Assembly (NCBI GenBank): GCA_018396555.1
Contig: JAGTQL010000003.1
Coordinates: forward strand, 1 to 41,721
Direction of reading: 5' to 3'
From: Candidatus Bathyarchaeota archaeon
GTDB lineage: Archaea; Thermoproteota; Bathyarchaeia; Bathyarchaeales; DTEX01
DNA length: 41,721 bases
Shown here: positions 2,225 to 35,076 of the stretch, piece after piece
Position numbering within the stretch: the first letter of the stretch is position 1
Layout: every line of letters begins with the position of its first letter
Translations under genes and position numbers: made by a program
Notes under the pieces: model-generated
The model's database searches: none
Seen by the model: only the letters and a program-made list of their open reading frames with translations
What the model was told of the DNA's origin: nothing

Positions 2225-4225
2225 TTAAACTATCTTCTTCACGGCATCTATAATCTTTTCCTTACTTGGTACAACTGTTGCTTCAAGCACTGGGCTCATT
2301 GGTATTGGAACATCAGCTCCTGCAACCCTGATCACTGGCGCATCTAGATAGTCAAACGCCTCCTCCATTATTAGAGAGGCTATTTCAGCTCCGAAACCGC
2401 AAGTTTTGCATGCCTCGTGAACCACCACAGCTCTATGAGTTTTCTTTATTGATTTAACAATCGTGTCGGCATCTAAAGGTTTTAGGGTTCTTGGATCAAT
2501 AACCTCTGCTTCTATTCCTTCCTTCGATAGTTCTTCAGCTGCCTTTAAGGCGGTATGAACCATTCTGGAATAGGCGATGATTGTGGCATCTGTACCTGTT
2601 CTCTTAATGTCTGCAACCCCTAAGGGAACAGTATACTCGGCTTCAGGAACCTCTCCTTCAACATTATAAAGCATCTTATGCTCAATAAATAGTATTGGAT
2701 TGTTATCTCTTATACACGTCTTTAATAAACCTTTTGCATCAAAAGGTGTTGATGGCATTACAACAAAGATCCCGGGGGAATGAATGAACCATGCTTCTAG
2801 GCTTCCGGAATGGTGGGCCGCTATACCTCTGCCAGCTCCACCTTGAGTTCTATAGACGACTGGAACTATTGATTTTCCACCAAACATATACCTGTTTTTA
2901 GCAGCAATGTTAACTATTTGATCCAGGGCTAATGTTATAAAGTCTATGTACATTATTTCAGCCACCGGTCGCATCCCGGTCATTGCTGCGCCAGCAGCGG
3001 ATCCAGCAATTGCTGCTTCGGAAATAGGTGTATCTCTCACCCTTTCAGGACCAAACTCATCATATAAACCTCTTGTAACACCATAGGCGCCACCATAAAC
3101 GCCTACATCTTCCCCCATTATAAAGACGCTTTCATCCCTTAGCATTTCCTCTCTTAACGCTTCATTTAATGCCTGTCTATAGTTGATTTTACGCATTTTT
3201 AGCCCCATCTTTTTAGCTGTAGGCAGATCTTTAATGGACGACTTCGGGTCGATGTAAATCTCTGTATACAGGTCCTCGTAAACAGATTCGATTGGCGGAT
3301 ATGGACTGCTTAACGCGAATCCTTCAGCCTCATTTATTTCTTCCGTAACTTCTTCTTCAAGCAATTTTAATTTCTCTTCAGTTAATATTCCTGCGTCAAA
3401 CAGTTTTCTAGAGAAGCTTTTTATAGGATCTTTCATTCTCCAGAATTCCTCTTCATCTTTCGTTCGATATCTTCTCGGATCGCTTAGTGAGTGACCAAAA
3501 TACCTGTAAGTTTTGCACTCAATAAATGTTGGCCCCTCTCCTCTTCTAGCTCTTTTAACAGCCTCATCAACGGTCTCCTTAACGTTAAGCACGTCCATGC
3601 CGTCAGCGATAACCCCTGGAATATTATATCCTTTAGCCCTCTCAGCAATATTCTCAAACGGAAAGGCTTTTTTAACTGATACCGACATTCCATAAAGGTT
3701 GTTTTCGCATATGTATACAACCGGGAGCTTCCATATGGCTGCCATATTTAGTGACTCATGAAAAGCTCCAGTATTAGCAGCTCCATCACCGAAGAAGCAT
3801 AAAACAACCTGGTTAGTTTTTCTCATTTTAATTGATAAAGCTGCTCCTGTAGCAACTGGAATATTTGACCCAACTATTCCGGTCGCTCCAAGGTTTCCTG
3901 AACTAACATCAGCAACATGCATTGACCCGCCCTTACCCTTGCAATATCCAGTAGCTTTGCCAAGAAGTTCAGCCATCATAAGTTTTATGTCTGCACCCTT
4001 TGCTATGCAATGCCCGTGACCTCGATGTGTACTTGTTATATAATCATCTTTGCGTATGGCTGCGATGGAACCTACGGCGACGGCTTCTTGACCTATATAT
4101 AAATGGGATGCACCCTTAGCAATATCTTGCATTAAAAGATCCATGTATTTTTCCTCAAACTCTCTTATGAGCATCATCTGCCTTAAATATCCAATTAGCT
4201 CCTCAAGTGTATACTTTTCAAGCAT
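2225..4225 (-). CDS. 2-oxoacid (pyruvate/branched-chain type) dehydrogenase E1, alpha and beta subunits fused in one polypeptide
   Basis: 666 aa; N-half has the ThDP motif [31 protein letters not shown] (E1 alpha); C-half has [18 protein letters not shown]...[32 protein letters not shown] (E1 beta). Confidence 0.94.
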
Positions 4226-4447: not shown

Positions 4448-5915
4448 ATGTTAAAAGAAGATGTTTATGATGTAGCGATTATAGGTGCAGGTATAGGTGG
4501 CTACGTCTCAGCTATAAGATGCTCACAGCTGGGGATGCGCGTTGTATTAATTGAGAGATGGAAAGTTGGCGGTGTATGTTTAAACAGAGGATGCATACCG
4601 ACTGCCGTGCTGTTTACTACAGTTAATCTTTTAGAAAAAATTAGACGCGCTAAAGATTATGGAATTCTCATCGGGAGTTTTTCAGTGGATCTCAACAACT
4701 ATGCGAGAAAAAATTAGACGCGCTAAAGATTATGGAATTCTCATCGGGAGTTTTTCAGTGGATCTCAAAGGAGTTAAAGCCAAAAAAGAAGCTATAGTTG
4801 ACCGTCTGAGCCAGGGAGTTAGATATTTACTTGAAAAAAATAAGGTTGATTTTATTGAGGGAGTTGGTAGAATAAAATCACGAAATCGCATAGTTGTTGA
4901 GAGAAATGGTGAAGAAAGGATTGTTAATGCGAAAAATATTATCATAGCATCTGGTTCCAGACCTAGACAACTGCCTAACATCCTCGCGGATGGAATTAAA
5001 ATAATTACGGCTGAGGATGTCTTAGGTCTAGAAGAGGTTCCGGAAAACATATTTATTATAGGCGGCGGGATTCTGGGAGTTGAATTCGCCCAAATATTTC
5101 GCTCATTAGGGGCAAATGTAACGATTCTGGAAAAGAGACAAAACTTACTTCCTAACCTCGATAAAGAAGTTGGCACTACTTTTCGCAGGATTTTGGAGAG
5201 AAACGGCATTAAAATATTTACAAGAGTCTCCTCCGAATTGGCAAGCGTTAAGAATGATAAAGTCAATTTAACATTCCAGGCGGACGGAGGGAAAGTTGAC
5301 GCTACCGCTGATAAAGTCATAGTCACTGTTGGGCGGATACCGAATATAGAAGATTTAGGTCTTGAAAATATAGGTGTTCGATTAAAGGATGGTTTTATAG
5401 AAGTTGATAGACGCATGAGAACTAATGTTCCCAATATTTATGCTGTGGGCGACGTCATTGGCGGAAAAATGTTTGCGCATGCAGCTCTTGCTGAAGGTTT
5501 GGTTGCAGCCGAAAATATTGCTGGATTAGAAAGAGAGATTGAATGGAGAACAATTCCAGTCTGCATATATACTACGCCTGAGATTGCGAGCGTAGGTTTA
5601 ACGGAAGAGGAAGCCGCCAATTTAGGTTATAAAATATCAGTTGGAAAGTTCCCATTTATGGCTAATGGAAGGGCACTGGCTCTTGGCGAAAGAGAGGGGT
5701 TTGTTAAAGTGATTGCCAGTAAAGAAACTGATGAAATTTTGGGGGTTCACATAATTGGTCCAGATGCGTCTAATATGATTAGTGAGGCTACAGTTGCGAT
5801 AAGGCTTGAATGCACATCCGAAGAGCTAGGCAGAATTATTCACCCTCATCCTACTTTAAGCGAGACAATTATGGAGGCGGCTTTGGCGGTTTTTGGGAGG
5901 GCAATCCATGTTTAA
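4448..5915 (+). pseudogene. lpd: Dihydrolipoamide dehydrogenase (E3), reading frame interrupted by an internal 73-nt duplication (real frameshift or assembly artefact)
   Basis: ORFs 4448-4717 and 4659-5915 are two frames of one E3. FAD motif AIIGAGIGGYVSAIRCSQLG, redox site GGVCLNRGCIPT, C-terminal HPHPTLSETIMEAA. Removing 73 nt yields the continuous protein ...VNLLEKIRRAKDYGILIGSFSVDLKGVKAKKEAIVDRL... Confidence 0.88.
4633..4768 (+). repeat. Direct duplication within lpd (two ~63-nt copies, period 73 nt, 10-11 nt unique spacer)
   Basis: agaaaaaattagacgcgctaaagattatggaattctcatcgggagtttttcagtggatctcaa occurs at ~4633-4695 and ~4706-4768; period 73 is not a multiple of 3. Confidence 0.97.
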
Positions 5916-24662: not shown

Positions 24663-24904
24663 TTCATTTAGTATTTCCAGGTTTGACCATGAGCGGAGAG
24701 GAGATCTAAAGGAGATTTGAAAATCGAAAAAATGAATAATCGCCTGAGAAAAGATAATAACTTAAGCATTATCATTTTACGTCAAACTCTTTCATTTAGT
24801 ATTTCCAGGTTTGACCATGAGCGGAGAGGAGATCTAAAGGAGATTTGAAAATCGAAAAAATGAATAATCGCCTGAGAAAAGATAATAACTTAAGCATTAT
24901 CATT
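24663..24904 (+). repeat. Intergenic direct duplication: two 114-nt copies separated by 14 nt
   Basis: ttcatttagtatttccaggtttgaccatgagcgg...cttaagcattatcatt at 24663-24776 and 24791-24904 (period 128). Confidence 0.97.
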
Positions 24905-34649: not shown

Positions 34650-34659
34650 TAGTTTATTA
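34650..34659 (+). promoter_or_regulatory. Putative archaeal TATA box for the SRP RNA gene
   Basis: tagtttattaa-like AT-rich box ~24-33 nt upstream of the predicted RNA 5' end (34683). Confidence 0.5.
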
Positions 34660-34682
34660 ATCCCAAAAACTAAAAATCTAAT

Positions 34683-35076
34683 GGACGGCGGGTCTTAGGC
34701 GGGGAGCTAGGGGTCCCCTGAGAGACGCACGGTCTCGACCGTAAACCCCCCTATACGACGGGCCGAAAGCTAAAGTGAGGCGTGTAAGGCCGCGGATCCG
34801 GCCGACCCTAAGCGATGAGTATCTGTCCTCTGGGGCTGGCGGTCGCGGGGCATCCTCCGTAGGGAGGGTGTAACCGCGTTTGTCAAGCGAACCTGGCCAG
34901 GCCCGGGAGATGGGGTGAGGGAAGTAAAATGGGAAGGGTAACATTGCTGAATAGGCTGTCCACCCGAAGGAGCAACCTAAGCTTGGGCGTTCAGCGCTCA
35001 GAGGGGTGCGGGTATGAGCGGTGGGCTGGTTTGGGTTTGCGGATTCTGCGCGTCGAGCTTTAGTGGCCCGCCGTCC
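34683..35076 (+). ncRNA. ffs: Archaeal signal recognition particle (7S) RNA, apparently interrupted in helix 8 by an intron
   Basis: Terminal helix ggacggcggg (34683-34692) / cccgccgtcc (35067-35076) is a perfect 10 bp. Alu-domain-like TTAGGCGGGGAGCTAGGGGTCCCCTGAG..AAACCCCCCTATACGACGGGCCGAAAGC. Helix 5 segment CTAAAG/CTTTAG. Helix 6 hairpin CATCCTCC-GTAG-GGAGGGTG with GNAR tetraloop (34851-34870). Helix 8 5' side GCGAACCTGGCCAGGCCC and 3' side GGAGCAACCTAAG. GC-rich island in AT-richer flanks. Confidence 0.9.
34910..34968 (+). other. Putative 59-nt BHB-type archaeal intron inside SRP RNA helix 8
   Basis: Central 4-bp helix CGGG (34904-34907)/CCCG (34963-34966), 3-nt bulges AGA (34908-34910) and AAG (34967-34969), distal helix TGG(G) (34911-34914)/(T)CCA (34959-34962). 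Cleavage after bulge nt 2 on each strand gives CCAGGCCCGGGAG^GGAGCAACC, i.e. canonical helix 8. Confidence 0.85.

Follow-up and report, generated by a model that had tools for sequence, protein, structure and literature searches.

A predicted bulge-helix-bulge intron in the helix 8 tip of an archaeal SRP RNA encoded in normal order

The SRP (7S) RNA gene found in the window, the whole 41,721-nt stretch of Candidatus Bathyarchaeota DNA analysed here, is interrupted at the tip of helix 8 by 59 nt that very probably constitute a cis-spliced archaeal bulge-helix-bulge (BHB) intron in a gene of normal order. Few RNA elements are as conserved as the helix 8 tip, which lies beside the SRP54 site of this universal RNA. 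Twelve genomes from two phyla carry inserts of 18-60 nt, mostly unrelated in sequence, at an identical junction, and the best reading of this pattern is that a BHB intron may have been gained repeatedly at one site in SRP RNA. The first-pass annotation of this DNA had treated the case of the present genome by itself; its intron interpretation holds, and the phenomenon is wider than a single genome. The relevant features, all on the + strand, are as follows.

34653 to 34661, +: TATA-box-like TTTATTAAT, some 25 nt before the start of the RNA, by inspection only.
34686 to 35073, +: SRP RNA gene with insert, in conventional 5′-3′ order, by RF01857 match; the sole SRP RNA match in the genome.
34686 to 34909, +: 5′ exon (5′ part of the Alu domain, helices 5-6 and the 5′ strand of helix 8), ending in CCAGGCCCGGGAG, by RF01857 and intron-less relatives.
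34904 to 34907, +: 5′ strand of the BHB central helix, CGGG (exon), paired with 34963-34966.
34908 to 34910, +: 5′ bulge AGA (3 nt), predicted cut after 34909, by the EndA rule and register test.
34910 to 34968, +: predicted 59-nt intron, ATGGGGTGAGG...CTGTCCACCCGAA, by deletion scan and presence/absence in the genus.
34911 to 34914, +: intron-side helix TGGG, paired with TCCA at 34959-34962, by compensatory changes in other genomes.
34963 to 34966, +: 3′ strand of the BHB central helix, CCCG (intron), paired with 34904-34907.
34967 to 34969, +: 3′ bulge AAG (3 nt), predicted cut after 34968, by the EndA rule and register test.
34969 to 35073, +: 3′ exon, beginning with GGAGCAACCTAAGC, by RF01857 alignment and relatives.

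The match to the archaeal SRP RNA model RF01857 (Archaea_SRP) scores 135.2 bits, against a gathering score of 96.5, and runs collinearly through model positions 1-317 of 317, confirming the conventional gene order that had been assigned earlier; the Thermoproteus-type order, with the 3′ half upstream of the 5′ half, is not seen. In the helix 8 loop the alignment opens into a 61-nt insertion where the model has 2 nt, and the site lies in the apical loop rather than in the asymmetric loop of helix 8. With a profile built from 43 intron-less relatives we scored 1600 versions of the sequence, each lacking 40-79 nt at or near the site: removal of exactly 34910-34968 ranks first, yielding 306.2 bits in one piece, while the uncut sequence is matched in two pieces of 201.8 and 84.3 bits. 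The boundaries are thus reached from the relatives, independently of any splicing rule, and the rule can itself be tested against the junction. The junction common to the inserts falls between CCCGGGAG and GGAGCA, and helix 8 of the intron-less relatives, CCAGGCCCGGGAGGGAGCAACC, is identical to the predicted spliced product. The first-pass annotation had described a helix 8 split by 59 nt between a left part ending at 34909 and a right part starting at 34969, had anticipated a score gain upon removal of these 59 nt, and had argued that cutting by the EndA rule would regenerate an archaeal helix 8; the sequence check, the deletion scan and the comparison with relatives agree with it on all three counts.

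In the EndA register, the 5′ bulge comprises two exon nucleotides and one intron nucleotide, and the 3′ bulge two intron nucleotides and one exon nucleotide. When 216 registers were tested, this one gave a complete central helix of four pairs, with three or more intron-side pairs, in 11 of the 12 inserts, the twelfth (in the Asgard genome G580) retaining three of the four central pairs with one mismatch, and the best of the other registers fitted a single insert perfectly. Shuffling of the window insert reproduced the same geometry in no more than 1 of 20,000 trials, and for the inserts of all genomes the observed geometry has P values of 5e-5 to 2.4e-3 each. Across ten distinct junction sequences, 95.6% of the cells in the BHB pairs are paired, as compared with 30-57% when partners are slid by 1-3 columns, and two-sided changes (e.g. 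G-C, U-A, C-G) occur at each of the four intron-side pairs. Since the central helix makes use of the invariant exon CGGG, its intron strand varies only to CUCG or CUUG, with G-U pairs, or to ACCG in G580; three Asgard inserts have two G-U pairs each in this helix. The earlier reading of the junction as a BHB, with CGGG/CCCG between AGA and AAG and with TGG(G)/(T)CCA beyond, proves exact, in a register that is unique across the 12 genomes. Its caveat about a short exon-side helix is also borne out: of the outer helices of a strict hBHBh′ motif, the intron-side one is regular and covarying, and the exon-side one consists of the single pair C34903-G34970 followed by the non-canonical pairs of the helix 8 symmetric loop. 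In nearest-neighbour folding of the isolated segment the BHB lies 4-11 kcal/mol above the minimum-energy structure, with the worst value in G000; as such folding also misses the established fold of mature helix 8, minimum-energy predictions are uninformative here.

Both presence and absence of the insert are seen among relatives, a comparison the first-pass annotation had called for, and most Bathyarchaeia are without it. Among the 11 genomes of the genus, the SRP match is 387-388 nt long in three sister species (G000, G010 and G002) and about 327-330 nt in seven; in the remaining one, G009, the gene is cut at a contig end and has no insert, bringing those without it to eight. The three carriers, from independent assemblies, have the same insert diverged by substitutions, and in a tree of the spliced SRP exons they form one clade (99/97). 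In the order as a whole, 133 of 165 genomes have an SRP match above the cut-off and four have inserts, helix 8 having been read directly in about 50 of these genes and the rest judged by match length only, so that very short introns could be missed. The fourth carrier, G036 (Candidatus Bathyarchaeota isolate ILS 300), belongs to another family; it has an unrelated 22-nt insert and is placed apart from the sister clade, beside the intron-less G023, which implies at least two apparent gains within Bathyarchaeia, or else a larger number of losses. Two further candidates, G017 and G030, were rejected: their genes are cut by contig ends and are without insert. A pattern search through 400 Thermoproteota genomes gave no additional true case of an insert; among the matches listed by the contig pattern scan most were chance hits in bacterial coding genes, and true SRP genes were picked by context. 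Permuted SRP RNA genes were sought in the same number of Thermoproteota genomes, with a single match that its sequence marks as due to chance.

In the Asgard phylum, eight of 232 genomes (G501, G502, G503, G579, G580, G581, G582 and G668) have inserts at the same junction. They are 26 and 24 nt long in two Baldrarchaeota genomes; 19, 18 and 24 nt in three related genomes, one of which is Candidatus Jordarchaeum; and 30, 31 and 31 nt in three genomes of a further lineage. The SRP exons of G508 are very similar to those of the insert-bearing Baldrarchaeota and have no insert between them. All insert-bearing genes scored with RF01857 exceed its gathering score, and for the gene in G668 the identification comes from the helix 8 sequence alone; all insert-bearing genomes with a record title are metagenome assemblies.

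More than one SRP RNA match was found in G025 (contig C1, positions 3279-3591 and 4913-5230) and in G122, the weaker copies scoring 119.5 and 105.2 bits, and G118 has three; gene duplication or mixing of bins may lie behind these. In five genomes that are at least 92% complete and have no SRP match (G014, G040, G058, G062 and G121), a search for the 3′ exon motif gave no match either; gaps, larger introns or rearranged genes could account for them.

The first-pass annotation had relied on EndA for splicing, and the genome of the window encodes two EndA paralogues as well as RtcB. In EndA alpha (C84), Tyr, His and Lys stand at the expected places, with catalytic roles read from the sequence; its closest counterparts are the heterotetrameric crenarchaeal enzymes 3p1z and 3ajv (Aeropyrum and Sulfolobus subunits), and its alignment with them includes the KP...DF part of the Crenarchaea-specific loop. 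The second paralogue (C17) lacks the histidine. The heterotetrameric class is reported to tolerate a broad range of BHB motifs (PMC6379350). Several tRNA genes of this genome have intron-size insertions in the anticodon loop, and one, L279 (1501-1597; G000:C85:1913-2009), has additional nucleotides in the D-loop that are likely to be an intron outside the canonical position, which is consistent with a broad-specificity EndA. In the Asgard groups Atabeyarchaeia and Freyarchaeia, introns are reported to interrupt 92-95% of tRNA genes, often at non-canonical sites (PMC11291895). The SRP intron has no similarity to the fetched tRNA loci, their introns included, and a box C/D RNA suspected by eye within it was rejected, as CUGA is not conserved in G002.

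From these genes and this geometry we infer that the SRP precursor is transcribed, cleaved and ligated. In the precursor, exon CGGG would pair with intron CCCG, displacing its pairing with the rest of helix 8; EndA, here of the alpha-beta heterotetramer type, would cut AG^A and AA^G after the second bulge nucleotide; and RtcB ligase would join the exons and so re-form the helix 8 tip CCC-GGGA-GGG, with a predicted joint at which GGCCCGGGAG is followed by GGAGCAACC. The intron itself is probably circularised by RtcB.

The strongest rival to splicing is retention, in which mature SRP RNA would keep the insert as a longer or branched end of helix 8, in the manner of basidiomycete fungi. Because the fungal insertions are reported to remain in the mature RNA (PMC4605306), insertion alone is no proof of splicing, and the inserts considered here can form hairpins. 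Retention would, however, destroy the CCC/GGG stem of the GGGA tetraloop, which is near-invariant in relatives, and it provides no reason for a 4-bp helix between 3-nt bulges, nor for insertion exactly at an EndA site in 12 of 12 cases; it also leaves unexplained the exact restoration of the conserved tip, and the fungal insertions lie in the asymmetric loop and not at the tip (PMC4605306). Nor do relatives share these 59 nt as a conserved expansion of helix 8, a pattern that the first-pass annotation had set down as contrary to its reading: other lineages have unrelated inserts of other lengths with the same BHB. We consider retention unlikely.

It is still less probable that the BHB is cut and the exons are left unjoined or joined in some other order, with SRP RNA working as two fragments or as a circle, even though archaea cut both rRNA and permuted SRP RNA at BHB motifs, with circular products (PMC7758197, PMC4731332). 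Against it stand the presence of RtcB; an intact helix 1 in a gene of conventional order, which leaves no need for circularisation; and the poor binding of SRP19 and SRP54 by T. tenax RNA left open at helix 8 (PMC4731332). An assembly artefact or a pseudogene might be suspected, given that the window comes from a metagenome-assembled genome, 90% complete and in 120 contigs, and yet the two sister assemblies with the same insert make an artefact unlikely, and a pseudogene is at odds with the conserved exons of the sole SRP RNA gene found in the genome; this is the most remote of the explanations weighed, and splicing of a BHB intron is the reading we prefer.

If splicing occurs as predicted, SRP assembly from a gene of normal order would require the tRNA splicing machinery, and the Asgard cases would show that essential RNAs other than tRNA undergo BHB splicing in the relatives of eukaryotes as well. 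Introns of the Bathyarchaeia genus and of Baldrarchaeota share both ends (ATGGA...CTGTCCACCCGAA), a similarity that is partly forced by pairing, and their cores are more similar than shuffled sequences (P 0.0005-0.002), which suggests a common origin or transfer. One may tentatively envisage that BHB introns have settled in the helix 8 tip again and again in two phyla, that some of them perhaps passed from one phylum to the other, and that the intron-bearing gene is the predicted intermediate on the way to permuted genes, a broader scenario that we hold to be possible and are inclined to doubt. It should also be kept in mind that covariance models may overlook or mis-bound SRP RNA genes whose introns are longer.

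Two direct repeats were observed elsewhere in the window. Two perfect 114-nt copies (24663-24776 and 24791-24904), 128 nt apart, lie just upstream of a hisG-like gene on the reverse strand, between the his operon and shikimate genes. A perfect 63-nt repeat (4633-4695 and 4706-4768) is located inside a dihydrolipoamide-dehydrogenase-like gene and separates ORF 4448-4717 from ORF 4659-5915, indicating that the gene is broken or that the stretch was duplicated in assembly.

Archaeal BHB introns occur in tRNA, rRNA and a few mRNAs, such as that of cbf5. The SRP intron shares with them the 4-bp helix between two 3-nt bulges, the short length and the predicted use of EndA and RtcB, and differs in its host and in having a symmetric loop, rather than a regular stem, as the exon-side helix. 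A search of the open-access literature found no account of an intron in an archaeal SRP RNA of normal gene order, a point of novelty that the first-pass annotation had wanted checked. The closest known system is the permuted SRP RNA of T. tenax and T. uzoniensis, which is circular and EndA-processed, with EndA cleaving a BHB near the helix 8 tip in T. tenax (Plagens et al. 2015, PMC4731332). Thermoproteus and the present case have in common the BHB near the helix 8 tip, the heterotetrameric type of EndA, of which our junction is a predicted substrate, and the restored helix 8 loop; the Thermoproteus gene, however, has its halves in exchanged order and yields a circular RNA lacking helix 1, whereas the present gene retains the normal order and helix 1 and has an internal intron to be removed. 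Plagens et al. proposed simple BHB introns as the ancestor of permuted SRP genes and reported none (PMC4731332); the predicted introns would supply that state, making the route from intron to permutation testable. Basidiomycete SRP RNA likewise has insertions in helix 8, differing in their asymmetric-loop position and their retention in the mature RNA, and the available passages of that account describe no BHB (PMC4605306). In Pyrococcus furiosus, the tRNA splicing machinery also matures a large non-tRNA RNA via a BHB, the permuted 23S rRNA, by circularisation and re-opening and not by intron removal (PMC7758197). BHB introns as such are known, and what would be new is SRP RNA as their host.
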